Assembly (NCBI GenBank): GCA_035610835.1
Contig: CM069446.1
Span: 1,627,001 to 1,691,000, forward strand
Length of the DNA: 64,000 nt
Direction: 5' to 3'
From: Ophiura sarsii
Taxonomy: Eukaryota; Echinodermata; Ophiuroidea; Amphilepidida; Ophiuridae
Shown piece after piece: positions 2,285-63,505 of the stretch (positions are counted from its first letter, which is position 1; each line of letters begins with the position of its first letter). The position numbers were made by a program, and so were the translations under genes. The notes under the pieces are model-generated. The model was not told the origin of the DNA, made no database searches, and saw only the letters and a program-made list of their open reading frames with translations.

Positions 2285-2427
2285 GGAGGGTGACATAACA
2301 GCCTTAGATTGTGTAGGCATGGTACATCCCACCAACGAGAGTCTCAATGAACCAAGTCCACTCACAGAAAAAATACATCGATTAGCTGGTCCAGATTTAA
2401 AACAGGAAGTCAAAACAAAGGTCAAAG
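2285..2427 (+). CDS. GDAP2: GDAP2 copy 1 exon 2 (macro domain, first part)
   Basis: Acceptor CACAG ends at 2284. The first base completes the split Trp codon (TG|G) from exon 1. Encodes residues 52-98 plus the first base of Gly99. Shows HPTNESLNEPSP and LAGPDLK, the first macro-domain loop region. Donor is AAAG|GTAAGC. Differs from the copy 2 exon only at silent sites. The 3' 70 bases and the donor are repeated twice more downstream. Confidence 0.93.
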
Positions 2428-5400
2428 GTAAGCAATATAGGGGTCAAGGGTCACATTTCTTATTATATCTCTCGCAGTCCACTCACAGAAAAAATACATC
2501 GATTAGCTGGCCCAGATTTAAATTAGGAAGTCAAAACAAAGGTCAAAGGTAAGCAATATAGGGGTCAAGGGTCACATTTCTTATTATATCCCTCCCATTC
2601 CACTCACAGTCAGAATACATCAATTAGCTGGTCCAGATTTAAGACAGGAAGTCAAAACAAAGGTCAAAGGTAAGCAATATAGGGGTGATCCTGGACACAG
2701 GGAGGTATCCTGGACACAGGGAAGTAAACACCACGCTTCGGACAAGTTTTTTAATTTAAATTTGAATTTTTAATTTAAAATCTGACGTTTCTGACGGAAA
2801 TTATGGACTGTTTTGTAAAAATGGTAGATTCCAAGTGTGACCAGAATGTTCTCTTTTAACAAAATCATTTACCATGTTCAGTACAAATTACAATACCCAG
2901 GTCCTTTTGCATGGAATACATTGTCTTAGTCCACTCAGCCAGGGGGTCATGTGCCCGTAATTAACAATTCCGTGCGCATTTATCACCTGACGTGAGCGCC
3001 CTGCGAAATAGACTGAGGCGACACATGCTTCCAGCATGGTTTTCAAATGGGATTTCATGGGGTTCGGGGCTGTAAGGGTTATAACTATTTTCTGACCTCC
3101 ACCCAAGATCAATTTTCATGATAATATTTGTGCTATTTTTTGTTACAGGATGTCGGACAGGGGAGGCCAAGCTCACCAAAGGCTACAATCTGTCTGCACG
3201 ATTTGTAATACATACAGTGGGACCAAGATATAATATCAAGTATAAAACTGCTGCAGAAAGTGCCCTCTTTAATTGCTACAGAAATGTCCTCATGCTTGCC
3301 AAGTAAGTGTATTTTGCTGTTGAATATTTGGTTTGGTTATTAAAGGTATATTATGTGATCTTTTCCAGGAAACACCCTCAATCCTTGAAAAAAATGTGGT
3401 GAAAGCAGATTTACTTGCTGATTTACATTTCTGATCATTAATCGTACATGCATTCCAAGTTACAGGGCGATACAATTCTTAATTACTTCAAAATCATGGT
3501 TTTAGAGTGAAAATAAACTGTCAGAGTCTGCGCCGACAACTTATTTTTATTCTAAATTCACTCTAAAACCATGATTTTTGAGGTAATTAGGAATCGTATC
3601 GCTCTGTTACTTGGAGTATAGTCTTGATTTATGAAAGAAAATCTACTTTCTAAAAAAATTATGAATAGAGGGCGCTCCCTGGAAAAGATCACATAATACT
3701 ATAAAGAAGACTATATATAAATGACAAAAATTTGGGTTTTTTTCAAATGTTATTCTCTGGTGTAGGCATGAGTTATCCCGTGTTATTTCTCTTACGTGAC
3801 ACAAGTCATTCTATACGGGTGTGTAACATATACTCGTATCATACAGTGCATGAACTCCGATAATGGTTTACTCTTTTTCCCAAGTGGCCCTGGAGGGACT
3901 TTCTGTCTTGTTAATTGGTTATTACCACAATGCTTCCACTGGCTGGTCCAATAACATAAACTGTTATGGGGCTGATTTAAACGAGTTAATACTAGAAACG
4001 TTATCATAATTTTTTAATCATCATAATCATGTAGCTATTTGGCACAGGATTTAGAATATAAATGATCGATGTTTTATTGGCAAAAATTAGCTCAAATTTT
4101 TCGATAGTGTTAGTTTAAACTTCAAGCTTAATTGTAAAAACTAGATTGTGTACATGTGTACTGTGTTTTGCTTACGGGAATTCTGACATTTTTGTGGTGC
4201 TTTTGCCCATTTTTTCCGACTCACCCTGTAATAATAATAATAATAAAGACATTTTTGAGCGCCTAACAACAGATAAATTCTCTAGGCACTTTACAAAAAC
4301 ATCATAGCTGACTGCAGATGAACCAAAAACATAAAAGCGAAACAACAAATGTTTATGTTGTATGTTTATTTGGGAACTAAACTAATGGAGCATTTCATTC
4401 TATCAATGTTATGTGTATACTTGGCAACTACGGAAAAATTGCTCATAACTCCACGTGTCAATCTCAAGTCAGCCGGTGAACGCTCATTTCTTATTGCTGC
4501 GTCTTCTGTCTGGAATTTGCTTCCAGATAATCTTCGCAACATCCCTAAACTCTCTCAGTTCAAAAGCAAGCTAAAAACTCATTTCTTCCGCCAGGCCTTT
4601 CCTGATTCACAGAATTAATTGTTGTTTGTTTTGCGCGCTCTGAGTTCCTTGGAAGATTTGTTTGCGCCTTATAAGAACCATCTATTATTATTAACTAACA
4701 CGTGTTATCTTACTATTTTTTATGTGCTACAGAGAGCATCAAGTCTACACCTTATCAATGTGTGCCATCAACTCAGTAAAGAGAGGTTATCCACCAGAAG
4801 AAGCAGCTCATATAGCCCTCAGTAAGTGTCCGCACAGTATATCATAGGCCCCTGACACTGGATTCCCTGTTTCCCGTCACATTAGTAAGTGACCGTACAT
4901 TATACCATAGGCCCCTGAAACGGGATTCCTTGTTTCCCGTCACATTAGAAAGTGACCGTACATTATACCATAGGCCCCTGAAACGGGATTCCTTGTTTCC
5001 CGTCACATTAGAAAGTGACCGTACAGTATATCATAGGCCCCTGACACTGGATTCCTGTTTCCCGTCACATTAGTAAGTGACCGCACAGTATATCATAGGC
5101 CCGGTGAAACTGGATTCCTTGTTTCCCGTCACATCAGTAAGTGACCGTACATTATATCATAGGCCCCTGACACTGGATTCCTTGTTTCCCGTCACATTAG
5201 TAAGTGACCGCACAGTATATCATAGGCCCCTGAAACTGGATTCCTAGTTTCCCGTCACATTAGTAAGTGACCGTACATTATATCATAGGCCCCTGACACT
5301 GGATTCCTTGTTTCCCGTCACATTAGTAAGTGACCGTACATTATATCATAGGCCCCTGACACTGGATTCCTTGTTTCCCGTCACATTAGTAAGTGACAGT

Positions 5401-8400
5401 ACAGTATATCATAGGCCCCTGAAACTTGATTCCCTGTTTCCCATCACATTATTTCAAGTCAAAATGAGGCAACTATTCATTATTTATTATTTGACACATT
5501 TACATTGGTGTAAGACAGTGTAATCAAGTGCATACCCCATTGTAGCAATAAAGGTAACAAGGGAAACACAGGACAATAAATGTCAGAAAAAATGGTGTGT
5601 GCCGCCCCCTGGAATCGAACCAGGGCCGCCGTGGCTGGAATCCAGGTGATCATGCATCACGCTACAGGGGTTGGGCACCCAAAAATAACTTTCAGAGCCT
5701 AGTTAATTATTTACCTTTGTTGGATTTAGGGTGGTTAGGGTTATAACACCTTAAAACAGTTTGACAAAATCCAGTGCTTGTTTTGTGTTGAAAAATAAAA
5801 ATGTTTATTACAAGAACCTGGATGAACATTGGCATAATTAATCATTTACTTTATCCCAACTGTCACAAACAAGTTTTATTATAACCAGGAGGAAATGCAT
5901 AATACTTTCAGGGCTCAACATTTGGATTATTCATTCAAAAAAATTCTGAAAATTAATCTTTCAAAGATATAATGAAAGTTTTGGAGGGTGGGGAAAACAA
6001 GAAAATTGAGTTTCAGGGGCCTTGACACTTTCCGCGCGTCAGTCGTCTGCAGACGACAGTTCCAAAATTTCAGAATACGCTTCACAAATGTCAAAATTAT
6101 TGAATTTCATCACCATATTTGGAATCACCATAAGATATGCAATAAAATAAGTACCAACATGCCTAGTATTGGTTCAGTTATCCTTGAAATAGACTTTGAA
6201 AGTTGAAAAATCTATTTTGTATAATGGTAAAACTGATAACCACGTGGAAAGTGTTAAGGAAGAGGGAAGATAAACCTTCTAGCAATGTGTGCTTTAAGTG
6301 CCCAAACGAAATAAGCTTAAAGGTCCACCAAAATGCATCGTTTATTACATATCAAAATAAAGACAAAATCACAAGAATTTCGAAAATAAACATTTTATGA
6401 GCAATCCATTAAAGGGAAAGAAATTTACAAAAACCATAAATGCGCCCAAAATCAGTATTAAAAACGATCTTCGTATTTTGAAAAACCCGCTCTACCAGGC
6501 CACACAGAGGAGAAATCATAGTTAGCCAACAATGCACTGTAACATTGTGACAAACCTAGGGTCTAATATGTCTTCACACACTCTTTACAATATTAGCCCT
6601 TTCCCATCATCATGCCTTGCTGAACAACTGAATGACCGCGCGAACTTTAAACATGTGTATCCATGCTGTGTGCATTCAAAACCATACAATCACAAGTGCA
6701 TTAGCTGTATTATCACATTATAGTGAATGAATAGATCGGAGTCATGTAAGGGAAGTTAGGGAACCTGTATAACTTGATACACATGTTATTTTGAGGCCAT
6801 ACTTTTAGACCGTGGTGCATTGTTTGCTTACTACAAATTCTCCTCTTAGACAACACGGAAACTGTGACGTCAGTCCGGGAATCTGACCGTATTGACACTT
6901 CAGTTCCTCCCGGAGTGACGTCACCAGCAAAGTCGCCCAAACCACTTCATGGTTCATTGCGTTTCTGGCGAAGGGCTTGGATTTGGTATACGGCCGAACG
7001 TATTTTATCTTTTTTTAAATATATTTATTCACATTTTATAAAAAACAACATGTGAAATGTTCTAACTAATATATTGAATAACTTTTAAAAATAAGTTTCA
7101 TGAGCACGTCGCTGGACCTTTAAGCTTAATACCCAATTTGGTCAAGCGCACAGCTGTATTCTGTGTACAAAGTGACAATGCTTGTGACAGAACCAGAATG
7201 CCAACCTTTTATATAATCCATACAGCCCATACTTCACACTTCCACAAATCCTGCCATGAAGCTAAATTCAATGAGTTTGAAATAAATTAAACAATTCTGT
7301 AACTATAAACTGTATGACTATTGTATTCTGCGAGCTATTTTTGTGTAAAAATATGCTGCGTCTTTTGCCCTTAAATTAAAAAAATAAAATTCTGATACGA
7401 AAATTTGACATCAGAAAAAGAATGATAACATTAACCTTGTTTTTCTTTTTGACTTTTTACAGGAACAACTAGAAGATTTTTAGAGAAACACAAGGAAGCA
7501 TTTGACATAATTGTTTTAGTAAATATGGGCATTAATGAGGTAGGTCAAGCATCTTTTAACCATTAGTTCCAAATGGACACACGTCACATGAGGTGGAAGT
7601 ATGCGAGCTCAACCTCGAAACCGTACAACAGACATCTGTGATGCGCACTACGTAATCTCGACCTCACGGCTCTGATTGGCTGGTGCTCAAACGTGAGAAC
7701 TGAAAAACTTGTGAATAAACATGACCTTATTCACGCACCATCACGACCCGCTGCGTTGGTGGTTATGGCGCAGTGGCACCACTGCGTTGGTGGTTACGGC
7801 GCAGCATGACGATTGTTAAAAAGGGTTCAGTTTAAATTTGACCAATCAGGTGCTCGAAGTGCGCCCACGTATGTCGAACTGGGGCCAGGAGATTATGTGC
7901 CATAGATCCATTGGCGAGAAATATTTGTTTTTTATCTCATTGCACGCAAAAACAATCCAAGCAAATGCGCGCAATTATTGCTACACTCATAAGAATTTGG
8001 TCACACACACGCATCACGCATATCATGCGCAGTGCATTTTGGTTGACTTCAGTGTGCCGTGGCCTACTGTTTTCATTCGCTGATATAAGGAGGCCTCGTC
8101 AATTTGGGACTGATCAAACTATAATCAAGACAGGAATGGACAAGTGGGTATTTTCATTTGAACCTAAGTGTGTTTCAGACCAAGGTCACTCAACACAAAA
8201 AGCATATGTAGTATTTCGCCCTGTCATGAAATAACTTCTCAACATCCACAAATAAAACGACATTCTCATTCCCATACGCTTTAAATCGGTAGGTATTCGT
8301 CGCGCTTATGGGTTTAGGTTTAGGTGTAATAAAAATTGGGTGAAATAAGTGTCTATAAACTTGACAAATAGCGTTACATCTATCGCATCGGTGAATTACT

Positions 8401-11400
8401 ATATTTCAAATAATTAGAAGTATTTTAACTTTCACCGTTGCTTTTTTTATATCAAACTACTGTATTCCGTTGCTAGTATTAGATAATGTAGTTGCTGCGA
8501 TAGACTATCAATGCCGATACTGTTTTCCGGGCTTTTCAAATAGAAATGTGGGTAGACAAGTTGCAACAGTCCTCAAGAGTCGTCCTACGCTGCCTGAGCT
8601 TTAATTACCCAGAATCCATGTCGTTCGATTACATTTTTTTGCCACAGACTTTTTGTGACAGAATTCTTGACACACTGAATTATTCATGAGTCATGGTAAT
8701 TCGATATGCAATGCGAGTGACGCGAACATCTACTTGTGTAGTGCATCTCGAAATTGATGGCACGCGATAGTATGATGGCGAGGTGTAATCACGCAGTATC
8801 GCAAAAAAACGGCATGATTAGAACGCTTTGCTTTTCAGTCTCCAACACAGCACAGCATACCGTTCGTGTGCCATGTTAGGAGACAGAAAGAATTAGTCTA
8901 GAGATGTGGGCGATTCAGACATAGTATAAGCTCCACACAACATTTCAATAGAGCTAATCATCCCCTCTAGTGAAGATCTATGATGAAACCTACACATATG
9001 CGAGGCATCATTCAACAAAGCTATAGCTTGCCTACTTCTGAAGGAAAAAAATGTTGACAGTATCTTAAGATGTCATCAAATATAGAATATTAACAATGAT
9101 GTATATAAACTGCTCAAAAAAAGTTTGGAATATTTTTTCAATCACAATTTGTTCAAATATCTCAGGTTATGTTCATTTTAAGTCACAGTGTAATATATCA
9201 TTCGAAAGCTGATGTGTTCGTCTTTACAATGACACCAAGTTTGAAGCAATCCCTTGCTCCAGTGCTCAGCTACTTGCTTGAGAACATGGGGAGGTCACAA
9301 TCTGAATGTGCCAAAATCAACACTATTTTGTGCTCAAAAGAACATCTTTGTCGTCTTTTCAATGAAGTGTTACATTGACCACCAGTGTAGTGTGATGATC
9401 TATTGAATTTTAAGCACAAAATAGTGTTGATTTTGACACTTTCAGATTGCGACCTCCCCATGTTCTCAAGCATGTGGCTGAGCACTGGAACAAGGGATTG
9501 CTTCAAATTGGATATCATTGTAAAGATGAACACATCAGCTTTTAAATTATATATTACACTTAATGAATATATCCTGCGATATTTGAAAATCTTGTACTTT
9601 AAAAATATTCAAAACTTTTTTTGAGCAGTTTAGGTACAATTCCAGAGGATAATAAAATGGAATGGCACAGGAGGTACCTGCATCAAGTTAGAATATGTTT
9701 TAAAACCCGGCTTTTTAGAAATTAAGAATATTCCGAACTTGCAATATTCTTATTAATTGATACTGACAAAAATAAAAATAAATTCGTCTTGCCTGCTTTT
9801 AATATACGGTTTATTCCGTAAAAATCTGTCCCATGGGCCTTATCTCGGTCTATTAATATGTTTGTGAAAACTAAGAATATTCCGAACTTGCAATATTCGT
9901 ATTAAGCTTAAAGCTTAAAAATGAAAGCTTATCTTGGTTTCTAATATGGCTAGAACAATCCTACTATTAAAGTTTGACTTGGATTGATACATTTGACATT
10001 CAAAACTCTGAACATATGACAACTGCCATAAGGTCATAACCTAAATCAGTCATTACTCTTTTTAGAAGATAGGTGGCTCTGAAAAGAGCCGCTCTTATGA
10101 GGCTCGCAGCCTCTTGTTGTACTTTGGCTTGTTCTTGCCATACCGCCTCCTTTCTTTGGACAGGCATTCTCAATTATGATAATGCTGATGAGATACCCGG
10201 TTGGACAGTCTGTCAAACATCATGCATGACCAAAGACGCCCCCTTAAACACAAATTTCCTCTGATGCCAAAATTCACCATAAATTAATGATTTTGTTTGC
10301 TTTTCTCCCCCCACTCCTCCCCCACCCCCAATTTGACCCCCCTAAAGCGAGTAAAACGTTGACAGGATTTTGAAGAAAAAAACCCTTTTTCTTGGTAGAT
10401 TTTAGGTCTTTAGGCAAATGAAACTTTCAAGTAGGGTCGGGCGGGGTTTTTTTTGGGGGGGGGGGGTTAAACAATTTTTGAAATGCTGGTAAATTTTTCA
10501 AAAATAAAAGTATAAAATAATAATTGACTGTTAATTGTCCAAAATGTTGTCACCTAAACACAAAGTTAATGACAAAACCAAATAAAAGCAAGTTTCTGTT
10601 GAAACAAGTTTTGGTTTTGGTATTTTGGTATTATTGGTCCTCATTTGTCTTCTTTTTATTATACTACAGGACATATACCAAGACCTACTCCCCCTATATT
10701 TTCCGCGGACGGAAACAGAAGCACAGTGGGCAGCGGATTTATTACCTGAGAATATAGGCAATGATAATGGTGAACCGGTGATCCCGGAAAGACAAATACG
10801 CATTATGGGAACGGTGGGAGGGCCATTAGGTAGGTACATACGCATCATGGGAACGGTGGGAGGGCCATTAGGTAGGTACTTTTTATTCTATAGATCAAGC
10901 ATGTGCAACCTTTTTTACCATCCGGGCCTCATTGTGATTTTGAGATCCATTCACGGGCCGCAGACGCAGTGATTGTCAAACATTCCAAAACTTGTCCGGA
11001 GAAGGGGTAATAGGGGGAGGGGAATCTTTGGAAGAACAAATGAGTCCATTGCTCATTGAATACCCGGTTCTCTTCGTGTAATTTCCTCTTTTTACACGCA
11101 ATCATGCCTCGTGTTATATTTACTAAATGAGAGCGTCACCCTACTTATTATTAGGGAGCACACCACTAAATCAATCCTCCATTAGTGTAGCTAGGGAGTT
11201 CCGGTTAAAACAGGCTGCATCAATGGGAATTTTGGGATTGTTTCTGCGGCCCGGGACATGCTTGCTATATATGTTAAGCATAAAAGGAAAGTATTTATGT
11301 TATGTTATTTTTGTCAACAATCAATGAGTTCTACTCTTTTCAAAGCTATTTGACTGCTGTGTGAAAATTGATCCACTGGTTTATATTGGCAGTTCCCTAA

Positions 11401-14400
11401 CCTTAAACCCTTAGGTCCACTCTTACCAGCCAGATCCTTTACAATATTGGAATATCTCAAGGTTGAGATTTCTCCATCTTAAAGCTGGCCTACCACTTTG
11501 GCAGTTCACCACAGACGAACTGGTCATACACCTGTTCACTTGGTGACAGACAGTACAGAGTTAACAAGGAGATATTGTAACCTTTTCAAATCCCCAAGAG
11601 ACCTGGATGTGGCTAGAAACCCAGAATAAAGGCTCACCTTTAACTCTATTTCATCTGTCACCAAATGAACAGATGTAAGCCAGTTCACCCTGGTGAACTG
11701 GCCAGAGTAGACCTTAGCCTTTAAAGCAATATTATGTGATCTTATTCAAATGTTTTCACATATTTTTTTCTCTCTTATGATGTTTATAAATCTATTTTGA
11801 CGGTATTTTTTGTTAAAAATCCATTACAGCACATTACTAAATCATAATGGAAATCTGCTTCCAATTTAAGGAATTTTTCAACATATTTGTTTGATTTTCA
11901 TCATAAAGCATTTCGTATGGATGTGTCCACTTGTGTACAGTTGCGGTTGTAACTGGGAACACTGTAAAAGGCGATAAAACGGCGTGAAAATGGTGTCAAA
12001 CCATGGAATTCTATTCACGAACAAAAAAACAACTCAGAAAATGAACTGTCCTAGTATTATTTTAAAATCTGATTTAGGAAACATATTAAGAGAATAAAAT
12101 TCTTAACTGTTTTGCAACCCGACTGTCATACAGACTGTGGTCGAGATGTGTTTGCAATTGTCAGATTTGCTGTGTACTGTATTCCTTTTTGATGAGGCGC
12201 ACCATAGATTTTTTTATTTTCAAAAACAAAATTCTTTTGGGTCGGGGGCTTAATTAGTGCCGGGTGGTTTACACCAATACAACAATTATTTTGTGTGCCT
12301 AACATGAACATCAATTTATGCACAAACCTTTAATTCAACAGAAAATGGAGATGAAGCCGATACAGAAGAAGAACAACAATGGGAGGATGAGTTAGCCAAG
12401 ATGCATATAGGTCAACATTCATTCACTAATATGGAAACTGATCCGGATAGGGTGAAGAAACAACAAGGGAATAGGGCTGTGTCAACACAACTAGGGTCAG
12501 AAGTCACACTAAGAAGAAGGTAGGCATATATATAGCTTAGTGAGTGTCAAATAGTTACGAATCATAAGGGTGAAGAAACAACAAGGCCATAGGGCTGTGT
12601 CAACACCACTAGGTTCAGAGGTCGCACTTAGAAGAAGGTAGGCATAAATAGCTTAGTGAGTGTCAAATAGTTAGGAATCATAAGGGTAAAGAAACAACAA
12701 GATCATAGGGCTGTGTCAACACCACTAGGTTCAGAGGTCGCACTTAGAAGAAGGTAGGCATATATATAGATTAGTGAGTGTCATATAGTTATGAAACATA
12801 AGGGTGAAGAAACAACAAGGCCATAGGGCTGTGTCAACACCACTAGGTTCAGAGGTCGCACTTAGAAGAAGGTAGGCATATATATAGCTTAGTGAGTGTC
12901 AAATAGTTACGAATCATAAGGGTGAAGAAACAACAAGGCCATAGGGCTGTGTCAACACCACTAGGTTCAGAGGTCGCACTTAGAAGAAGGTAGGCATAAA
13001 TAGCTTAGTGAGTGTCAAATAGGTAGGAATCATAAGGATGAAGAAACAACAAGGTCATAGGGCTGCGTCAACACCACTAGGGTCAGAGGTCACACTTAGA
13101 AGAAGGTAGACATCTACGTATAACTTGACCTCCCATCTTTCTACACATGTGTGTATACACCACCGCCTCGAGAAGGCATATGTGTGTGTATGTACTGCAA
13201 TCAGTGAATGACACAGATACATTACTGTCTCGTGAAAGCCCCGGGGTGCTCAGTGTTCATTACAAGGGGGTATCATGCGCGTCCAAGGACTTTCAAAAAG
13301 TACCCTAAATACATAATCATGTAATGTGAAAAAGCACCCCCTAAACAAGTATGGCACAGTATTTTACATACAAGCAAGTAATATCAGTATTTCTAATACC
13401 TTAAACAAGTACTCAAAATATTTTGATACCCTAAACAAGTACTCAAAGCAGGTAATTTGTATAGTTTAAACCTCTTACCGCGTATGACACATTTCTAACC
13501 CTTTTTTCCTTCCCTAATAAGCTAAAAGTATTATGAAATAAATGCCGAGCTGAACTATCAGATCACTTGCGAAAGATACAATTTGAGAAATATATCTCGC
13601 CCATGTATCATGGCTATTTATAATCCTTATGGAGCAAATAAGGACCCTAATACGAAAGCCAATGATGTAAAAAATATACCCTTTTTCTTAATTTGGCTTG
13701 TTTTGATACCCTTGAAAAACAACCCTAATTACGTGATTTCTTGGACACGCATGATACCCCTCTTGTAATGACCACTGAGCACCCAGGGGTGAAAGCGAAA
13801 TAGACTAAACATACAAATTTGTAATAACAATACAGACACCCACCTAAACATTTGTTATGTCTGTTATTTCTCTACAGATATGAAAGGTTACTAAGGAGAG
13901 CCAGGACAGAAGACCTTACCGACCTTGCCGCCCATAGATGTATCTACCAGACTGGTACAGATATATTTGGCAGGCCAATAGTCATATTTGTGGCCAGAAA
14001 TTTTCCCGCCTCCATCATCGATCTTGATAAGGTAAGAAAAACCAAATTTGTCCCCATGGTGAAAAACAAAATGGCGACACATCGGATCGGACCCCTGAGA
14101 ACTACCGGCCGATTGGTTAAAAAGATAGATACATCATTTATTGCACCAATGAGAGACATTGTTAGAATAATTGTATCCCTGATAAAGATGGGAGTGAAAC
14201 ATTTTACAAGCTGCATTTGAATTGGCTATTCATATGAGTACATCTTGTAATAAACCAATCAGAACCACTGTAAGAGACAGGTAGACCCCAGGGGGTTACA
14301 ATCTCTAGTTTATAAAATCTAGAGTAGCAGCAGGGGTTTTGGTTTTTGAACATTGATATATCAAACCCATGTATTGATTTTTGTAAATGGCCCTAACAAG

Positions 14401-20031: not shown

Positions 20032-20179
20032 AGATATCCGTGAAGATTGATCTCCGTGAAGATTGATCTCTGTGAAGATTGATCTCCGTGAAGATTGATC
20101 TCTGTGAAGATTGATCTCCGTGAAGATTGATCTCCGTGAAGATTGATCTCCGTGAAGATTGATCTCCGTGAAGATCTCC
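20028..20179 (+). repeat. 16-bp minisatellite starting at the stop codon
   Basis: Eight full units of GTGAAGATTGATCTCC (20040-20167; two end CTCT) with shortened 12-bp units on each side. The first GTGAAGAT overlaps the TGA. Lies in the presumed 3' UTR. Confidence 0.93.

Positions 20180-27834: not shown

Positions 27835-27837
<3 letters not shown>

Positions 27838-44582: not shown

Positions 44583-44583
<1 letters not shown>

Positions 44584-44624
<41 letters not shown>
44584..44624. repeat. 41-G homopolymer
   Basis: Longest G run in the window, followed by T and more G. Real length is uncertain in any sequencing technology. Confidence 0.9.
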
Positions 44625-44625
<1 letters not shown>

Positions 44626-45898
44626 GGGGGGTATAAAGAAGAAGAAAAAAGGGGGAAAAGGAAATTGAAAAAAAGGTGGGAAAAAGTTATTATTATTATA
44701 GAACAAGAAAAAAAGCCTATTGAAGAAACATGTGCGGAAATAGCAGGCGCGGTAGGCATAGGCTATTCTAAAACAACCATGGAGAATATAAAATTAGAAA
44801 ATTCCCTTCTCTTTTAGTTCAAAATCAAAAGACGTTGCAATCATGGTTCGTAATAGTCTCATCACGCAAATCACGGCTGGTTTTAAATCAGTTTGTTAAA
44901 CATAATACTAATAGCCATCACAGAAAATTAATAAGAGGAATGACCATGCTTTGTATTCTGAAATGATCTTTTTATGGGCCAGGGTGGTTTGTCCTGTTGA
45001 TTGTCATTCACTTCACTGAAAGTTCACACTAAAGCATTATATAAGGCATAAAAGGCCTGGCCCGACAATTTTATGTCGGAATGGGAAGTTCAAAAACAGC
45101 GGCGAGAAAAGGAGAGTAAAAGTTTATTTCATTAAGAAACCTGATTATGTAGAATATCTTTTCATTCTTTGGTTTAATTTAAACATCACTCTCAAAGTGT
45201 TTCGATATACTGATATAAACACCTGCCATGCCTGACTGGGTTATTCTAGTAATGCGTCCCCACTTGTGTGCTGTATTTAACTTTACTTTTGACCAATAGC
45301 ACGCTGCCTTGCATGTCGCATAGGTGGGGAAATAGGACGACTGTTATTCGGTATCAACAAGCAGATCTGGACACCCCACATGTGCCGATCAAAATACTGA
45401 GCATCTTGCTACATGTATTTAAACGTCGAGAAGGTTTCTTTGAAGTCTAATAATATGGGGAGAGCTAAAAGTAAAAGCAGGCGTGTACGCAGGGGGTGTT
45501 TAAGGTGTAAAACACCCCCCCCCCCTCTTGAGTCTGTCAAAAAAATGAAACGGTAGAATAAATAAGGAGTGAACACCCCCCCCCCCCCTCCTCACCTTTT
45601 TAGTTAGGGGCATCCCCCCCCCTCCCACTTTTTTGGCAACCTCAAACACTTATATTTTATAAAAATGAATTAATGAGGTCTGAAATGGCTAAGAAACTCC
45701 CTCGGTCCTCGGAGACTATCGAAATTCAAAATGTTCTCAAGCAACAGTACTGTAGGTATACCTATATTAAAGCAAAATGCCAGGCAAAAATGTCAAAACA
45801 ATTCCTGGAATGTAAAGGAAAATATAAAGTTTGTGAGTCTTGAAACGGCTTATAAATGCCCTCAACGATCACCTAAATTCAACATTTTCTCAGAGCCC

Positions 45899-47801: not shown

Positions 47802-47953
47802 ATGGATCCAATAGGAACTCAGTCTGGTATAGTTAAGGCTCAAGATGTGACAAGATGGCAGGATACAGAGGTGCCCAAATATGGCGTCACAGAGGCACAG
47901 CATACATCTAGGTTTCCATGCCAACCAGATATCAATAAGAAGATTGCCCTATG
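47802..47953 (+). CDS. GDAP2: GDAP2 copy 2 exon 1 (start codon)
   Basis: ATG at 47802 with G at -3 and G at +4; an in-frame TGA lies two codons upstream (47796-47798), so translation starts here unless an upstream exon is joined. Encodes residues 1-50 plus TG of the split Trp: begins MDPIGTQSG and ends DINKKIALW, parallel to MDPLGAPSQ and KVVLW in human GDAP2. Donor TATG|GTAAGTA. Too short and too split to stand out as an open frame; found by its fit to exon 2. Confidence 0.92.
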
Positions 47954-53900: not shown

Positions 53901-56900
53901 CCCTGTTTCCCGTCACATTAGTAAGTGACCGTACATTATACCATAGGCCCCTGAAACGGGATTCCTTGTTTCCCGTCACATTAGAAAGTGACCGTACATT
54001 ATACCATAGGCCCCTGAAACGGGATTCCTTGTTTCCCGTCACATTAGTAAGTGACCGTACATTATATCATAGGCCCCTGACACTGGATTCCTAGTTTCCT
54101 GTCACATTAGTAAGTGACCGTACATTATATCATAGGCCCCTGACACTGGATTCCTAGTTTCCCGTCACATTAGTAAGTGACCGTACATTATATCATAGGC
54201 CCCTGAAACTGGATTCCTTGTTTCCCGTCACATTAGTAAGTGACCGTACATTATATCATAGGCCCCTGAAACTGGATTCCTAGTTTCCTGTCACATTAGT
54301 AAGTGACCGTACATTATATCATAGGCCCCTCAAACTGGATTCCTTGTTTCCCGTCACATTAGTAAGTGACCGTACATTATATCATAGGCCCCTCAAACTG
54401 GATTCCTAGTTTCCCGTCACATTAGTAAGTGACCGTACATTATATCATAGGCCCCTAAAACTGCATTCCTTGTTTCCCATCACATTAGTAAGTGACTGCA
54501 CAGTATATCATAGGCCCCTGACACTGGATTCCCTGTTTCCCGTCACATTATTTCAAGTCAAAATGAGGCAACTATTCATTATTCATTATTTATTACTTGA
54601 CACATTTACATTATTACACACAAGTTGTTGGTGTAAGACCAGTGGTGGAACTTCAGATTTTTGTCAACTAGCCAGTCGGGCAGGTAGTCGGGCAGGTAAC
54701 TCACAGAAATTACCTGCCCCCAAAAAAATTCCACCAGTCCAAGGTTTTTTCGTAATATTTTGCAGCAAACAAATAAGAGCAAGACTACTTTAAAACTACA
54801 ATTACATGTTTTTTGTCTTTATTGTACAATGTTCCACTGTAACCCTAGCCCGTAAAACAGCTTCTCGTGTTTATCATGTTCATCAATCCAATACTCCAAT
54901 GATGAAATAACCCTGAACTTACTGTTACTTACACCTTGAGCTTCTTTTTTTCCATCCCTGTGTAAGACAGTGTAATCAAGTGTAATCTTGCATAATCCTA
55001 ACCCATTCAGGGGTGTGTAGCAATAAAGGTAACAGGGGAAACACAGGACAAATAAGGACAGAAAAAATGATGTGTGGCACCCCCGGGAATCGAACCAGGG
55101 CCGCCGCGGCCTGAGTCCAGGTGATCATGCATCACGCTACAGAGGTTGGGCACCCAAAAAAAACATTTCGGAGCCTATATGTACCTTTGTTGGATTTAGC
55201 ATGGTTAGGGTTATAAACACCTTAAAACAATTTTAACACACTTCCACAAATCCTGCCATGAAGCTAAATTCAATGAGTTTGAAATTAAAAAAATAATTCT
55301 GCAACTATAAACTGTATGACAATTGTTTTCTGTAGGCTATTTTTGTGTAAAAATATGCTACGTATTTTGCCCTTAAATTATAAAACAAATTCTGATACGA
55401 AAAATTTGACAAGGGAAAAAGAATGATAATATTAACCTTGTTTTTCTTTTTGACTTTTTACAGGAACAACTAGAAGATTTTTAGAGAAACACAAGGAAGC
55501 ATTTGACATAATTGTTTTAGTAAATATGGGCATTAATGAGGTAGGTCAAGCATCTTTTTTATTTATTTATTTTTAATTTATGCTCTCTTTATTGAAGGTA
55601 ATATGCTTCAGTGACTTGCACTGCTTACATAAATACATACAAATAACAAATATTACAGTGTTTAAATATAATACAAATTATGATATTCTTCAATTATGAT
55701 AATTTACAGTGGATATAGAGGATTTGAATTGACTGAGTGACATATTTTCTAAATCAATACGAATAGATGGTGATAAATTGTTCCACAGATGGCTAGATCT
55801 GAAAAGAAAAGTGCGCATACCAGAATTTGAGTTGATTTTAGGAATGATTAAAGTATTACTAAAATGATTCCTGGTAGTATGATTGTGATAGTTATGTACA
55901 AATTCAAAATTGGATGATAAATATAGGTTGTACTTAAAAATACTTTAAAAAAAGAAGTTTTCAACTTCTTGAAACCATAGCTATAGTTTAATCAATTTCA
56001 AATTGGCGAGAAATATTCGTTTTTTTATCTCATTGCATGCAAAAGCAATCCAAGCATATGCGCGCAATTATTGCTACACTCACAAGAATTTGGTCACACA
56101 CACGCATCACGCATATCATGCGCAGTGCATTTTGGTTACCTTCTGTTTTCATTCGCTGATATTATTTATAACAATAGGCTGAAGAGCCAGGACAAACCCA
56201 ATAGTGACAAGCACTAAATTAAAGGGATGCCCGAACATCTAAAATAAATAAAAAGGAACAGACAAAAAAAAAACCAAAAGGGGAACAAGACAAATGAGAG
56301 GGAAAAACAAAAAGGGACCAGACAGTGAAACAAAAGGAACTGGCTACAGGAGATGGTGGCAAACAGCAGTCTTGAAGGATGTTAAGGTAGCACTCTTGAC
56401 AACAATATCAGGAAGATAGTTCCACTAAGTGGGAGCAAAAGGATAAAAAGACATTTTGGAGAGAGAAGTATAAGGAGGCTTCGCCAATATGGGACTGATC
56501 AAACTATAATCAAGACAGGGATGGACAAGTGGATATTTTCAGTTGAAGCTGTGTGTTTCAGACCAAGGTTGCTCAACACAAAAAGCATATGTAGTCTTTC
56601 GCCCTGTCATGAAATAACTTCTCAACATCCACAAATAAAACGTCATTCTCGTTCCCAGACGCTTTAAATCGGTTGGTATCGATTTCAAAATATGTGCTAT
56701 TGTCCGTTGCGCTCATGGTTTCGAGTTTAGGTGAAATAAAAACTGGGTGAAATGAGTTTGACAAATAGCGTTACATCTATTATCGGTGAATATGTGTATT
56801 AAATTACTATATTTCAAATAATTAAAAGAATTTTAACTTTCACCGTTGCTTTTTTTTATCAAACTACTTTTTTGTATTCCGTTGCTAGTATAAGATAATG

Positions 56901-59900
56901 TAGTTGCTGCAATAGACTATCAATGCCGATACTGTTTACCAGGATTTTCAAATATGCTAGTCATAGAAATGTGGGTAGACACATTCCACGAGTCCTTAAA
57001 GAGTCGTCCTACGCTGTCTGAGCTTAAATTACCCAGAATGCAAAGCGGTTAGATTACAGTTTGTTGTGACAGAATTCTTGACACACTGAATTATTCATGA
57101 GTTTACAGTAATTCGATACGTAATGCGAGTGGCGCGAACGTCCACATGTGTAGTGCATCTCGAAATTGATGGCACGCGATAGTATGGTGGCGTGGTGTAA
57201 TGCGATCAGACGCACATCGCGGAGTATCGCAAAAAAAACAGCATGATAGAACGCTTTGCTTTTCAGTCTCCAACACAGCATCGCGCCATGTTAGGAGACA
57301 GAAAAAATGTCTAGAGATGTGGGCGAAACATACATAGTATAAGCTCCACACAACATTTCAATAGAGCTAACCATCCCCTCTAGTGAAGATCTATGATGAA
57401 ACCTACACATATGCGATGCATCATTCAGTGAAGCAATAGCTTGCCTTCTTCTGAAGAAAAAAATGTTGACAGTATCTTAAAGGTAGATGACCCAATTTTC
57501 AACTTGATGTTTTCTATTTTACATGAAAGGTCATCCTTAAAATTGTTGCATTCCAAAGTTTGAGTTGCATAACTCCAATATTTCTATTTTTAGAAGCGCA
57601 AGGTCAAAAGACATGTGCCCATTGAGTAGTACACAGACTGGTTGGTGGTTAACCACCTTTGGCAGTAATTCACCACATTTTAGCCTATAATTTCCAAATG
57701 AAACATTTCTGGTTCCTAAAATTTTACAGACATAATGAGAAAAAATGGGGATTCTTCTGATACCAAAATATGTTGATGTGAAGAAAAAAATCATAGCCCC
57801 AAAAAAGTGATCGGGTCATATACCTTTAAGATGTCATCAATATCAAATATTGAATATTAATTATAAGACAGCTTTCCAATTATGTATATAGCTACAATCC
57901 CAGAGGATAATAAAAAGGAAGGGCACAGGAGGTACCTGCATCAAGCTACAATCCTGGAAAAAAGTCTTGGAACACTTGTGTGTGATTAACGGAAAAGTGT
58001 CACCCCACTCCCCCGTACAATGTTGACCATGCTCCTGCAGCTTGCCAGAGTGTCCCAACATTGATCGATGGGGGGTGGGGAAGGACAAATCTCATTTGAA
58101 CAATTTCTGTTTATAACAGAAGACACTAAGTATCAATGCACAGAATACCCAACACGTGTGCTCAGCGTTCGCGTTCCAAGGACTTTTTTCCAAGATTGTA
58201 GAATATGTTTTAAAACCTGGCTTTTTAGAAATTAAGAATATTCCGAACTTGTAATATTCTTCTTAATTGATACTGACAAAAAATAAAAATAAATTTGTCT
58301 TGCCTGCTTTTAATATACGGTTTATTCTTTAAAAATCTGACACATGAACCTTATCTCGGTCTATTAATATGTTTGTGAAAATTAAGAATATTCCAAACTT
58401 GCAATATTCGTATTAAGCTTAAAGCTTAAAAATGAAAGCTTATCTTGGTTTCTATGACTAGAACAATCCTACTATTAAAGTTTGACTTGGATTGTTACAT
58501 TTGACATTCAAAACTCTGAACATATGGCAACCGCCATTACTTTGGAGGTTGTAACCTAAATCAGTCATTACTCTTTTTAGAAGATCGGTGGCTCTGAAAA
58601 GAGCCCTTCTTATGAGGCTCGCCGCCTCTTGTTGTACTTTGGCTTGTTGGGCCTTGTGTGCTGCTGCTGATAGTGATGGTAATTCTTTCCATCAGTGCGT
58701 GGCGTTGTTCTTGCCATACCGCCTCCTTTCTTTAGACAGGCGTTCTCAATTATGATAATGCTGATGAGATACCCGGGTGGCAGGGGTCGCATTCTGACGC
58801 GTCTGCGCGTCCTAAACCTCTCACTTTCTTTTTTAGTGACGCGTCAGGTTTCAAATTGGAAAGACTTGCGGGTCCCGATCAAAATTGAAGGGACCCCTTA
58901 AATTTGACAATGTATGGAAATGGAAACCTTAAGAAATTCTGTAAATTATATCCTTTGCTCACAATATAAATTCATTAAAACTGGTCGTAAAAAAATAAAA
59001 TTTTCAAATATCCAAACTTCAGGACCCCTCAATTTCTTGGAGGACCCCTTAAATTTGTTTTTTGAAGTCCTACGGGGTCCTGAAAATTTCATGGGACCTC
59101 TTACAATTTTGATCCAGTGCTATCCCTGCTGGGTGGGCAGTCTGTCAAACATCATGCATGACCAAAGATTTTCCAGATGCCCCCTTAAACACAAATTTCC
59201 TCTGATGCCAAAATTCCCCATAAATTAATAATTTTGTGTGCTTTTCTCCCCACCGCCCCCCCTAATTTGACCCCCTAAAGCGAGTATACTGTCGAAAGGA
59301 TTTTGAAAAATCAACCTTTTTCTTGGTAGATATTAGGTCTCTAGGCAAATGAAACTTTCAAGTAGGGTCGGGCGATTTTTTTGGGGGGAAGGTTAAACAA
59401 TTTTTAAATGCTGTAAAAAATAATAATTGACTGTTAAATGTCCAAAATGTTGTCGCCTAAACACAAAGTTAATGACAAGACCAAATAAAAGCAAGTTTCT
59501 GTTTAAACAAGCTTCACAGTATTATTGGTCCTAATTTGTCTTATTATTATTATTATACTACAGGACATATACCAAGACCTGCTCCCCCTATATTTTCCGC
59601 GGACGGAAACAGAAGCACAATGGGCAGCGGATTTATTACCTGAGAATATCGGCAATGATAATGGTGAACCGGTGATCCCAGAAAGACAAATACGCATCAT
59701 GGGAACGGTGGGAGGGCCATTAGGTAGGTACATACGCATCATGGGAACGGTGGGAGGGCCATTAGGTAGGTACATTTTATTCTACAGTCATCAAAAAAAG
59801 TAACTATACAGGTAATAAATGGACTTTTAACTCTAAAAATATATATCCTACCTAAAAATATTAAATCAAAGATGTTGAGAAATTTAACTTCTTTAATATG

Positions 59901-62900
59901 AGATTGCAACACGACTGTCATACAGACTGTGGTAGAGGCTGTTTGCAATTGTCAGATTTGCTGTGTACTGTATTCCTTTTTGATGAGGCGCACCAAAGAA
60001 TTTTTTTATTTATTTTTTTAAAATTTCTTTTGGGTCAGGGGCTAAATTAGTGTCAGGCGGTTTACACAAATACAATAATCATTTTGTGTGCCTAACATAA
60101 CATGAACCACTTTTGTTTTGTTGTGTTGAAGTGATGACGGTTCTCCAAGGGATTCTATTCATTTTGGGATAGGAAAGTGCTATACTGATGTACGTAGCGA
60201 AAACGGTCCCTTTTGCATATTTACATAAATTATGGTAATCGTCCGGAATGCGTCAGTGACCAGGGTTTAGCGCGTTTAACCTGGTTTAACGTCATTTTTG
60301 GTCGGCATAGGTTTGGTGGCGCTGTTCTCGCGGTAGATTTACACAGACGACGGTGGCCACACGAAACCTACATTTTGAATTCATATAGGAATAACACCTA
60401 AACGCGAATGTTAATCTTATCATTTTGACAAATTCATCATTAGAAAAATTTTCATCTTAACAGGGCTATGACTGTTCAAAATAATTCAAAATGGTGCACT
60501 CCCGCTGCCATATTGGGTCGTCTGAGAGACGCGTGGCCAGCATCGCGTCGTCTGCTACAATCACATCTTATCGGTATAGCGCCACCAGTTCTATGCCGAC
60601 CAAATTTTAATTTAAAAGTGGCTGAGTGGCACACCCCTGGTTCTCCTTCATTCGCATTTTTGTACCATTTTTGTTTTGCAATGATGTGTTGATGCGCCTG
60701 GAGCAACAGTTTTGTTAAATGTGGCGCATTATAAGCTACCATTATTATAATCAATTTATGCACAAACCTTTAATTCAACAGAAAATGGAGATGAAGCAGA
60801 TACGGAAGAAGAGCAACAATGGGAGGATGAGTTAGCCAAGATGCATATAGGTCAACATTCATTCACTAATATGGAAACTGATCCGGATAGGGTGAAGAAA
60901 CAACAAGGCCATAGGGCTGTGTCAACACAACTAGGTTCAGAGGTCACACTTAGAAGAAGGTAGGCATCTACATATAACTTTATCTCCCATCTTTCTACAC
61001 ATGTGTGTATACACCACCGCCTCGAGAAGGCAGGGGTGTGTATGTACTGCAACCAGTGAATTACACAGTTACATCACTGCCTCGTGAAAGCAAAATAGAC
61101 TAAGCATACAAATCTGTAATAACAATATAGACACCCACCTAAACATTTGTTGTGTCTATTATTTCTCTACAGATATGAAAGGTTACTAAGGAGAGCCAGA
61201 ACAGAAGACCTTACCGACCTTGCCGCCCATAGATGTATCTACCAGACTGGGACGGATATATTTGGCAGGCCAATAGTCATATTTGTGGCCAGAAATTTTC
61301 CCGCCTCCATCATCGATCTTGATAAGGTAAACAAAACAAATTAGTCCCCATGGTGGAAAAAACAAAATGGCGCACATCGGATCTAGTTTAACCTCCTGAG
61401 AACTACCGGCCGATTGCTTAAAAAGATGGATACATCATTTATTGCACCAATGAGAGACATTGTTAGAATAATTGTATCACTGATAAAGATGGGAGTGAAA
61501 CATTTTACAAGCTGCATTTGAATTGGCTATTCATATGAGTACATCTTGTAATAAACCAATCAGAACCACTGTAAGATAGACAGGTAGACCCCAGGGGGTT
61601 CTCTAAAATCTGTAGTAGCAGCAGAGGTTTTGGTTTTTGAACATCGATATATCAAATCCATGTATTGATTTTTGTAAATGGCCCTAACAAGAAGATGTCT
61701 TCACTCAACCAAGTTGATGCGGATACTCAAAAAATAGTAAAATACACCTAGCACATAAAGTCCCTGACCAGGTGCTTTGAGGTTGGCTAATTCAAAATAG
61801 ATAGTCAAAAAATCAAAACACACAAATCAATGATTTCCTATACCTAGTGCAACTTAGCTGTTGTTACGTGCGGTCATTGAAATCGCCATAACTTTAAAAG
61901 TATCCATTCGATTTGGTTGAATGAGGTATCAAACTGCAGAGAAGAAATTTGCTCATTTAATGTGTATCTCAGATTTTTGGTAATGATTATATATTTTGAA
62001 TGAGCCAACCTCAAAGCACCTGGTCAGGGACTTTATGTGCGAGGTGTATATAAGTTTGCCTCATATCTGTTTCAGAATTAAGGTAGCTAATTCGGCGCCT
62101 ACACCACTGCAGAAAAACAGCTGTAATACCAAGTTAATTATATCTATACTTTTTATACTGTGACCACATCAAAGATAAGTCTTTCCTCTACATATTTGAG
62201 GACTTATGAATATTTTGTGAAATTTCTTATGTTTTTCTTTATTTTTTTGAAAATTTCCTCAATTTTCACCTTCTGGAATTTCTGTACACAAAAGGGAAAG
62301 TGCTATTACCATGACACTTTGGGGATAAATTTATAAGCATATTACCTAAACTTTCTTGTGAGTTTTTTCAGATACAAAAGGCTGTGAATAAGTCTAGAAA
62401 TACTTAGGAGTATCTAGGAATTTTCTAAACTTAATTACCTTCTATATGACAGACACCTTGTTTGTAATTGAACATGTATTTTTTCTGTAGAAATTCACAA
62501 AATTTGGAAATATAGTGTTTCTAGAAAATAGTGCAAAAGTACTAACATTCCCAGTGAAAATACCCTTCATCACCACTCAGTTGCAGAAAGAAGAAAACAA
62601 ATTGTGTAATACCTTGGTGTTTTGGCATAAAAAAATAAAAAGTCTTTAGCATACATCAATTTTAAAGAGGAGAAAAAAATGATTTTTCTGAAATTTGACA
62701 GTACTTGGGAATTCGGCAATGCCTCCCTCCTGTAGTAAGTCAAATAGTTTCAAATAACAAACAAATTCCGTAAATAAAAAAAATTCAAACTTAGCATATT
62801 TCATTTTGTTATCAATGTACACATCCTCTGTGCTATTTTGAAGCAAATCAATGCCTGTCAACGTGTAGCCGAAGTTAGCAACCTTAACACTTTCCATGCG

Positions 62901-63363
62901 GCAGGCAGCTGCAGACGACATTCCAAATGTTCACAAAAATGTTTCAAAAATGTAATAATCATTGAATTTCATTATCATATTTGGAATCACCATGAGAAAT
63001 GCATTGAAATAAGTACAAACATGCCTAGTATTGGCTCAGTAATCCTTGAGATAGACATTGAAAATTGGGAAAGATTTCGGGAAAATCTGGTATGTATATG
63101 GTAAAACTAATAGCCACGTGAAAAGTGTTAACCATGACACCTCTTACTCTATTCTCATTTACACGCAGGCTCTCTTGTATTTCATCCATGTGCTGGATCC
63201 CATAGTCAACCAAGATTACGTAGTTGTCTATTTCCATACACTTAGCACCGCCGATAATCAACCAGAATTAAATTGGCTCAAGCAGGTCTACCAAATGGTG
63301 GATAATCGCTACAGGAAAAATCTCAAATCATTTTATATAGTCCATCCAACTATGTGGTCAAGG
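47802..63363 (+). CDS. GDAP2: GDAP2 copy 2, exons 1-9 (3' partial, runs off window)
   Basis: Exons at 47802-47953, 49827-49969, 52304-52457, 53769-53857, 55464-55540, 59564-59723, 60782-60959, 61173-61326 and 63169-63363. Lengths and phases are identical to copy 1 for exons 2-9. The reading frame is intact throughout. About 25 silent changes and one replacement (His here, Asn in copy 1, in exon 7) separate the copies, which indicates purifying selection on both lineages or allelic diversity in a highly polymorphic species. Exons 10-11 would follow beyond 64000. Domain content is as in copy 1: macro domain, acidic linker, CRAL-TRIO. Introns differ by several transposon insertions and by the tandem donor repeats. 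Confidence 0.95.
48036..48115. repeat. Left-half fragment of the TAGCACATAAAGT MITE
   Basis: ACACCTAACACAAAAGTTCT, then GGACCAGGTGTTTTGATGTTGG, matches the left arm at 14453. Followed by short repeats TCGCACAGTCA/TCGCACAGCC. Confidence 0.55.
49292..49562 (+). mobile_element. Telomere-motif-ended element with hairpin and tRNA-like segment (second)
   Basis: TTAAACCCTAACTC left and GAGTTAGGTTAG right, degenerate. Hairpin CGAGGCGAATATACTTCGCC at 49394-49415 and tRNA-like 49424-49495 with GTGGTGTAGTGG and GTGGTTCAAATCCC boxes. Aligned to 32605-32875, the hairpin stem sequence differs but still pairs. Confidence 0.7.
49827..49969 (+). CDS. GDAP2: GDAP2 copy 2 exon 2
   Basis: Acceptor TCCACAG ends at 49826; donor AAAG|GTAAGC. 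Same 143 nt as copy 1 with two silent changes. No tandem expansion here: the donor is followed directly by AATATAGGGGTGATCCTGG, which in copy 1 follows the third unit. Confidence 0.93.
50087..50380 (+). mobile_element. Telomere-motif-ended element with hairpin and tRNA-like segment (third)
   Basis: TATAACCCTAACCCCACT left, GTGGGAGTTAGGGTTAA right. Hairpin at 50184-50219 (arm GCATATGTGGCCAC, loop GAAGTTT) directly before a tRNA-like segment at 50223-50295 with A box TTAGCTCAGTTGATAGG and B box GGATCGAATCCC. Absent from copy 1, so a recent or polymorphic insertion. Confidence 0.8.
50974..52190. mobile_element. 1.2-kb PIF/Harbinger-like non-autonomous element, copy 2 only
   Basis: TTA duplicated at 50971-50973 and 52191-52193; ends GGGAGCGATCGTTATTTATG and the inverse CATAAATAACGATCGCTCCC, continuing through GGCAGGGGGG. 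A 3-bp TTA target with G-rich ends fits PIF/Harbinger. The interior holds a direct duplication of about 190 bp (from about 51298 and 51510) and a nested GGCGTAGCCAGG repeat near 51866. No transposase. It sits inside a larger stretch (50711-52235) that copy 1 lacks. Confidence 0.8.
52304..52457 (+). CDS. GDAP2: GDAP2 copy 2 exon 3
   Basis: Acceptor GTTACAG ends at 52303, donor AA|GTAAGTG. Residues 100-149, amino-acid identical to copy 1 (CRTGEAKLTKG, HTVGPRYN). Confidence 0.95.
52495..52858. mobile_element. Foldback MITE GGTATATTATGTGATC (intron 3, shared site)
   Basis: TTAA at 52495-52498 and 52855-52858; arms as in 3340-3703. Same insertion site as copy 1. Confidence 0.9.
53388..53732 (+). 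pseudogene. LINE reverse transcriptase C-terminal remnant (shared site)
   Basis: Same fragment as 4349-4693: SSVWNLLPDNLRNIPELSQ and FKSKLKTNFFRQAF, then GCGCCTTATAAGAACC and ATTATTATTAAC. Present in both gene copies. Confidence 0.8.
53769..53857 (+). CDS. GDAP2: GDAP2 copy 2 exon 4
   Basis: Acceptor GTGCTACAG ends at 53768; donor CTCA|GTAAGTG is unit 1 of the 63-bp array. Identical to copy 1 exon 4. Confidence 0.95.
53857..54549 (+). repeat. 63-bp minisatellite at the exon 4 donor, 11 units
   Basis: 693 bp = 11 x 63. Unit form as in copy 1 with different variants (TTTCCTGTCACATT, CCCCTCAAACTGG). One unit more than copy 1. Confidence 0.95.
55074..55153 (-). repeat. tRNA-like sequence in telomere-motif element
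   Basis: Diverged copy of 5599-5679. Flanked by TAATCCTAACCC (54993) and GGTTAGGGTTATAA (from 55203), the same kind of ends as the hairpin elements. Minus-strand B box GGTTCGATTCCC is intact. Confidence 0.55.
55464..55540 (+). CDS. GDAP2: GDAP2 copy 2 exon 5
   Basis: Acceptor TTTTTACAG ends at 55463, donor GAG|GTAGGT. Identical to copy 1 exon 5. Confidence 0.93.
55560..55860 (-). pseudogene. LINE C-terminal remnant inserted after the exon 5 donor
   Basis: Matches 33160-33470 in TATGCTTCAGTGACTTGCAC and GTTCCACAGATGG. Copy 1 lacks it: CATCTTTT there is followed by AACCATTAG. A copy-2 insertion. Confidence 0.6.
55981..56510. mobile_element. TATAGTTTGATCAG MITE carrying a further insertion
   Basis: Left CTATAGTTTAATCAATTTCA, right GGGACTGATCAAACTATAA. 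About 300 bp between TTCGCTGATAT and AGTATAAGGAGGC is extra relative to copy 1 and contains an A-rich segment (56250-56340). Confidence 0.6.
57481..57825. mobile_element. 345-bp MITE, TTAA target, copy 2 only
   Basis: TTAA (57477-57480) AGGTAGATGACCC ... GGGTCATATACCT TTAA (57826-57829). Copy 1 has the empty site GTATCTTAAGATGTC at 9061-9075. Related to 33478-33835. Confidence 0.92.
57884..59563. other. Intron 5, last part of copy 2
   Basis: Aligns to 9633-10669 but with two copy-2 insertions at about 57955-58190 (C-rich ACCCCACTCCCCCGT, GGGGGGTGGGG) and 58785-59135 (interior repeat GACCCCTTAAATTTG). No exon seen. Confidence 0.5.
59564..59723 (+). CDS. GDAP2: GDAP2 copy 2 exon 6
   Basis: Acceptor ACTACAG ends at 59563; donor TTAG|GTAGGT at 59724, alternative donor 59766 (+42 nt). 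Protein identical to copy 1 exon 6. Confidence 0.93.
59682..59765 (+). repeat. 42-bp tandem duplication with two exon 6 donors
   Basis: Same arrangement as in copy 1: GCATCATGGGAACGGTGGGA in both units. Both 14-codon extensions are open. Confidence 0.9.
60782..60959 (+). CDS. GDAP2: GDAP2 copy 2 exon 7
   Basis: Acceptor TTCAACAG ends at 60781, donor GAAG|GTAGGC. Same 178 nt; about seven silent changes and QGH instead of QGN. Single copy, no array. Confidence 0.92.
61173..61326 (+). CDS. GDAP2: GDAP2 copy 2 exon 8
   Basis: Acceptor TCTCTACAG ends at 61172, donor AAG|GTAAAC (weaker than copy 1 GTAAGA). Protein identical to copy 1. Confidence 0.94.
61388..61600. mobile_element. MITE CCCCCTGAGAACTACCGG family (shared site)
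   Basis: TTAACCTCCTGAGAACTACC left, GACCCCAGGGGGTT right. Same insertion as 14090-14297. Confidence 0.87.
61742..62049. mobile_element. MITE ATACACCTAGCACATAAAGT (shared site)
   Basis: Same element and site as 14453-14760, 308 bp, with a few substitutions. Confidence 0.9.
62884..63131. mobile_element. MITE CACTTTCCATGCGGC (shared site)
   Basis: TTAACACTTTCCATGCGGC left, CACGTGAAAAGTGTTAA right; ends 37 bases before exon 9 as in copy 1. Confidence 0.87.
63169..63363 (+). CDS. GDAP2: GDAP2 copy 2 exon 9
   Basis: Acceptor TTACACGCAG ends at 63168; 195 nt, phase 0/0. Protein identical to copy 1 exon 9. Donor AGG|GTAAGTAG. Its last 129 bases are duplicated immediately downstream with a second donor. 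Confidence 0.95.
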
Positions 63364-63505
63364 GTAAGTAGTGTTTCATACACTTAGCACCGCCGATAAT
63401 CAGCCAGAATTAAATTGGCTCAAGCAAGTCTACCAAATGGTGGATAATCGCTACAGGAAAAATTTCAAATCATTTTATATAGTCCATCCAACTATGTGGT
63501 CAAGG
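63235..63505 (+). repeat. 142-bp tandem duplication of exon 9 3' end plus donor, copy 2 only
   Basis: CATACACTTAGCACCGCC at 63235 and 63377; donors at 63364 and 63506. The second unit has a C to T change giving NFKSF for NLKSF and CAG for CAA in NQPE. The native continuation GTAAGTATTGAGTGTTTC follows the second unit, as after the single unit in copy 1. The junction lies in a shared TTTC. Confidence 0.95.

Follow-up and report, generated by a model that had tools for sequence, protein, structure and literature searches.

Tandem repeats across splice donors of GDAP2 in the brittle star Ophiura sarsii

Boundary minisatellites and the GDAP2 locus

The closest described systems are the mirage minisatellites of amphioxus, which have been reported in Adh3, in the globin genes BflGb6 and BflGb9, and in troponin C and PGBD5 (PMC3087553; PMC3902484). 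As excerpts of these reports describe them, mirage units of 10-160 bp lie across an exon-intron boundary and many carry AG/GT signals, the number of units in BflGb6 varies by haplotype (6 and 3), and Adh3 data together with globin RT-PCR suggested that splicing was undisturbed. Minisatellites at exon-intron boundaries have also been described in human genes of segmental duplications, where their number varies and splicing can be altered by them (PMC2812944). These human internal tandem repeats were found by comparison of paralogs and have an average unit of 30 bp; a concentration at the donors of one gene does not appear in the excerpted text of that report. In potato, excerpts describe a tandem duplication in RdRp that likewise crosses an intron-exon boundary and that created a new intron (PMC4974935), whereas at the locus described below an existing intron just seems to be lengthened from the 5' side. 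The intron repeats of earthworm metallothionein, as they appear in excerpts of PMC12783039, are a different thing from arrays at donors.

We analyzed a 64-kb stretch of Ophiura sarsii contig CM069446.1, hereafter the window, in which TRF called eight arrays with units of 42-142 bp, each spanning a splice donor of GDAP2. As in the excerpted accounts of amphioxus mirages, all eight arrays span an exon-intron boundary and their units carry splice signals. They differ from those accounts, in which both boundaries can be affected, in that none of the 18 GDAP2 acceptors is involved, although involvement of both boundaries is not required of a single gene. They differ further in the brittle star host, in the share of donors affected within one gene (6/10), and in the size of one array, which has 20 units. 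Overall, the GDAP2 arrays fit the known descriptive class of mirages in a new phylum, and are unusual in their number and in their restriction to donors. No echinoderm case of mirage or boundary minisatellites was found among the matches listed from the open-licence literature, and the brittle star case would extend mirage repeats beyond lancelets to at least two deuterostome phyla.

GDAP2 is the sole gene recognized in the window and is present in two copies, both on the forward strand. Copy 1 comprises exons 2-11 (2285-20031), the last of which contains the stop codon (19972-20031); its exon 1 was not found anywhere in the 64 kb. Spliced, exons 2-11 give a frame of 450 residues that lacks a start codon, exon 1 being outside, and that has a single terminal stop. 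The predicted protein is 84% identical to GDAP2 of Amphiura filiformis, its nearest relative among the matches listed, and 67% and 55-58% identical to the Acanthaster and Branchiostoma proteins in the same set of matches. These identities place the DNA in a brittle star, and an amphioxus host was rejected on them. A 16-bp tandem array of 8.9 copies (20033-20175) starts one base after the stop codon, in the presumed 3' UTR. Copy 2 comprises exons 1-9 (47802-63363) and then runs past the window end, so that its exon 10 falls beyond the window. The donor of its exon 1 (47802-47953, forward strand) is free of repeats.

The arrays lie at the donors of exons 2, 4, 6, 7 and 10 in copy 1 and of exons 4, 6 and 9 in copy 2, which amounts to six of the ten distinct donors and none of the ten distinct acceptors. 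All are given here on the forward strand. In copy 1, exon 2 (2285-2427) ends in AAG/GTAAGC, the slash marking the boundary, and its donor belongs to a 121-bp array of 2.7 copies (2355-2686) with all three donors intact and an in-frame stop inside unit 2; the copy 2 donor (exon at 49827-49969) is unexpanded. Both copies also carry a 19-bp tandem duplication (2688-2726 and 49988-50026), some 19 bases downstream of the final exon 2 donor. At exon 4, a 63-bp unit is repeated 10 times in copy 1 (4821-5451) and 11 times in copy 2 (53857-54550), with GTAAG kept in 8/10 and 10/11 units, respectively. The exon 6 donor is duplicated in both copies, with a 42-bp unit present twice (10796-10879 and 59690-59775).

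The exon 7 array of copy 1 (12449-13113) was called by TRF as 118 bp x 5.7 and holds six units, with donors spaced at 116-118 bp and intact in all six; exon 7 of copy 2 (60782-60959, forward strand) has a single, unexpanded donor. Exon 9 shows the reverse arrangement, with a 142-bp duplication of two copies in copy 2 (63235-63512) and a single donor in copy 1. The largest array, at exon 10 of copy 1 (17323-19265), repeats a 97-bp unit 20 times. Its donor is CAG/GTAAGT in 18 of the 20 units; after the last unit, the intron starts with a weaker GTAAGA, which we take as the older form. GT is intact in every unit of exons 2, 6, 7, 9 and 10. For five of the six donors the repeat unit includes the 3' part of the exon together with a piece of intron, and the exon 4 unit contains a single exonic base.

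These results bear out most of a preliminary description of this DNA, which had placed the donors of the same six exons in tandem repeats, five of them carrying the 3' part of the exon, with exons 4 and 6 expanded in both copies, exons 2 and 7 only in copy 1 and exon 9 only in copy 2, and with acceptors unaffected. It had also held that the units share no sequence, and by eye we found none beyond the donor itself among the TRF consensus units. A transposon or introner with a shared unit is not favored, given that the consensus units look alike only at the donor.

Concentration at donors and chance

To place the arrays among the other repeats of the window, 46 TRF rows were merged by hand into 36 loci, with a cut at 40-bp units that was chosen post hoc. 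Every locus with a unit of at least 40 bp spans a donor (8/8), while none of the 28 loci with shorter units does, and an acceptor is contained in none of the 36. A 42-bp TRF row at 23785-23864 belongs to an array counted as 21 bp. The set has one exception that TRF missed, as did the adjacency rule of the threshold-based scan described below: a two-copy tandem duplication of 213 bp (51297-51724, forward strand), with copies about 86% alike, lies in intron 2 of copy 2, away from donors and in a stretch that has no colinear counterpart in copy 1. With this duplication included, long-unit loci at donors number 8/9, or 6/7 when only distinct loci are counted. The difference between distinct donors (6/10) and distinct acceptors (0/10) gives a Fisher P of 0.011.

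The second, threshold-based scan returned 21 tandem pieces, nine of which had an offset of at least 40; eight of the nine contain a donor, and the other is a remaining piece of the exon 4 array. Local self-similarity is likewise divided between the two kinds of splice site, reaching at least 39 at 8/18 donors and at most 8 at the remaining ten, compared with at most 10 at all 18 acceptors. Among 60 random positions, one reached at least 39 (inside the exon 10 array) and one 35, with the rest at or below 20. Degenerate older arrays were also looked for at the remaining donors, none of which rises above background self-similarity. Donor strength was considered as a cause and set aside, since donors with and without arrays are similar on visual inspection.

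The main competing explanation is ordinary minisatellite turnover that has no bias toward donors, with six arrays falling at donors by chance and picked out as striking. Such an account gains from the fact that a single gene is seen, from the post hoc choice of the 40-bp cut, and from the intronic position of the 213-bp duplication. Random placement argues against it. Six distinct blocks were placed at random in the 64 kb against the 18 donor sites, 200,000 times for each kind of length; six matches never occurred with unit lengths, where the maximum was four, and occurred once with array lengths. Confining the comparison to the five arrays of copy 1 and its gene body gave a chance product of 1.2e-7 with unit lengths and 7.6e-4 with array lengths, the latter a modest figure that counts in favor of turnover. 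The absence of shorter-unit loci from donors also counts against unbiased turnover, which we consider unlikely. Donor enrichment in this window is beyond chance, for one gene only; between 20 and 48 kb, inspection by eye of 53 open frames of at least 75 codons recognized no other genes that could serve as controls.

The two copies, array history and donor use

The two copies are separated by a 100-N gap (42916-43015). Their coding sequences differ at 26 of 1149 bases, 23 of these at third positions, and a single residue in 383 differs. In ten blocks of colinear, mostly noncoding sequence, substitutions occupy 345 of the 7129 columns aligned (4.8%). For comparison, excerpts of PMC11310086 give a heterozygosity of 3.22% for Amphiura filiformis, whose assembly was diploid before haplotype removal. 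Given a divergence near this value and the gap between the copies, unmerged haplotypes are a live reading, and the two copies may represent one locus. If so, the differences in unit number would simply be allelic, of the kind described for amphioxus BflGb6.

The same observations bear on a second alternative, namely assembly error, by which the repeats or the copies would be made or miscounted by the assembler and the gene copies would be unmerged haplotypes. The gap, the proximity of 4.8% to the A. filiformis figure and the single residue difference all point in that direction. The exon 4 and exon 6 arrays, however, occur on both sides of the gap with unit variants private to each side, so the repeats are unlikely to be artifacts. 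We regard assembly error as distinctly improbable as an explanation of the arrays; its haplotype part is quite possible and leaves the finding of arrays at donors standing.

Comparison of the copies also informs the age of the arrays. Unit number differs between copies at exons 2, 4, 7 and 9. At exon 4, units 1-3 are identical in the two copies while the inner units differ, so that the array is older than the copies; the exon 6 array predates them as well. The end of exon 7 in copy 2 differs from units 2, 4 and 5 of copy 1 at 2/71 sites and from units 1, 3 and 6 at 5/71. A change from N to H is shared by the coding unit of copy 2 and all five downstream units of copy 1, and the Amphiura residue at what by eye appears to be the same place is N. 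The simplest reading of these patterns points to copy 2 exon 7 having contracted from an array, or exchanged with one, rather than to a fresh gain in copy 1. Recombination between the first and last units would restore a clean single unit, so the absence of an array from one copy is no proof of recent gain elsewhere. The preliminary description had called the process recent, repeated and independent. That reading is partly right; an independent and recent origin need not hold for each array, those of exons 4 and 6 being older than the copies and that of exon 7 suggesting contraction or exchange.

Changes among units may carry further traces of exchange, with a synonymous bias clear only in exon 10 of the four arrays tested. 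Six of the seven variable exonic sites in the exon 10 units are synonymous in the exon frame (P = 0.003; expected fraction 0.29), with an excess of third positions (P = 0.007). Successive units are out of frame with one another, 97 not being a multiple of three, so that we do not read the bias as coding use of all units; the pattern is as if the coding unit had been copied repeatedly into inner units. At exon 7, 6/12 changes are synonymous (P = 0.12), and at exon 9, 2/3 (P = 0.15). Exon 2 units 2 and 3 seem to change as expected of intron, with one of eight distinct changes synonymous and the other seven altering a residue or giving a stop.

Reading frames suggest that the first donor of each array is the one used. 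We modeled 16 alternative donors (two for exon 2, four each for exons 4, 7 and 10, one for exon 6, and one for exon 9 of copy 2), including one exon 4 model that uses a unit with a lost GT. In 15 of the 16, the normal protein end is lost or a stop is met in the extension. The effect at exon 10 is mild, with other sequence in place of just the final 19 residues and a stop ten residues beyond the normal one. The exception is the second donor of exon 6, which stays in frame and would add 14 residues. From exon 2 to exon 11 the frame is complete with nine introns, and no new intron is apparent among them. An acceptor-like CAG closes the exon 2 spacer, but by arithmetic the 71-nt exonic part that follows it would shift the frame. 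In all likelihood GDAP2 remains functional, the first copy of every splice signal being the one used.

A third alternative would have the arrays kept because serial donors that bind U1 help the gene, through exon definition or suppressed premature polyadenylation, for example. The preservation of CAG/GTAAGT in nearly all exon 10 units, followed by a weaker donor after the last one, would suit such a benefit. One copy nevertheless does without arrays at each of exons 2, 7 and 9, and donor bases have been lost in 2/10 and 1/11 exon 4 units, which makes a selected role very improbable.

Junctions and a possible origin

The junctions between units were examined for shared bases. Breakpoints share AAG at exon 10, A at exon 4, and about one base at exon 9, as judged by eye in the junction strings; at exon 6 they share AT in copy 2 and no bases in copy 1. 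At exons 2 and 7 the junctions contain extra sequence. About 31 bp in exon 2 units 1 and 2 are absent from the flank of unit 3 and from copy 2, and 36-40 bp in exon 7 units 1-5 are absent from the flank of the last unit and from copy 2. No source of this sequence was found elsewhere in the window, where matches outside the arrays did not exceed 13 bp. These 30-40 bp could instead be original intron that was later lost beside the last unit. The preliminary description had proposed slippage during replication at AAG/GTAAG microhomology, which as a general cause is the least probable of the alternatives, as it fits one junction of six (exon 10, where the shared AAG forms CAG/GTAAGT) and the other five share 0-2 bp unlike GTAAG or hold extra sequence.

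The junctions of exons 4, 6 and 10, with 0-3 bp shared, agree with the absent or short microhomology expected of end joining. According to excerpts of PMC5730883, the tandem duplications that polymerase theta makes when it joins overhang breaks in mouse stem cells show microhomology and, now and then, templated inserts, and excerpts of PMC8654963 report an accumulation of tandem duplications, about 100 bp to 10 kb long, in C. elegans lacking HELQ. By analogy, which is not proof, the donor-array junctions resemble polymerase-theta joining of breaks with overhangs. The mouse duplications are likewise short; as excerpted, they arose from experimental Cas9-nickase breaks and had no tie to splice donors.

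Given these results, we favor as probable an account in which the arrays are mirage-type minisatellites that arise from break repair at donors, are tolerated through first-donor splicing and are then reshaped by exchange, with some bias toward donors. Each array would start as one short tandem duplication of 42-142 bp crossing the 3' end of an exon and its donor, made by end joining of a staggered or paired-nick break nearby. Such a duplication would be tolerated if splicing takes the first donor and later units become intron, while a copy lying within an exon or spanning an acceptor would more often alter the mRNA. From two units on, unequal exchange and conversion could expand, shrink and homogenize an array, up to 20 units, and exchange could make the coding first unit trade places with one from the intron. 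Tolerance by itself appears insufficient, since long-unit duplications are nearly absent from the much longer introns, and a local bias to breakage or duplication at donors is therefore likely.

Several considerations qualify this break-repair account. The proposed origin is drawn from the junctions of arrays that are already partly altered, and the intronic 213-bp duplication means that donors are not the sole site. A donor bias cannot be established from one gene in one window. Furthermore, amphioxus mirages occur at acceptors too, which would not be expected to be common under strict first-donor tolerance.

A broader proposal, which we put forward tentatively and consider possible though less likely to be right than wrong, is that tandem duplication in this genome, and perhaps in further deuterostomes outside the vertebrates, has its hot spots at donors through a donor-linked process such as transcription, R-loops or bound splicing factors, and that the intronic units form a store of sequence for exchange with the exon's coding end. 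The residue change shared among exon 7 units and the synonymous bias at exon 10 would then be traces of such exchange. If donors are hot spots, the 5' ends of introns would gain sequence and spare splice sites, and these could provide raw material for intron gain and alternative splicing. There is also a warning in the pattern, as exchange may take place between the ends of exons adjoining such arrays and intronic copies that are not under selection.

Other features of the window were recorded in passing. No tRNA genes were reported in it, and Rfam gave one marginal match (34.3 bits; cut-off 34), which lies within intron 5 on the minus strand (10051-10095) and is to the histone 3' UTR stem-loop. 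Stretches of poly-G, 29-48 bases long and pure or almost so, occur at 702-730, 27831-27865, 39293-39328 and 44584-44631. Intron 5 also contains a long imperfect inverted repeat (9106-9638, about 80%), whose ends resemble TGCTCAAAAAAAGTTT and which is probably a fold-back element.
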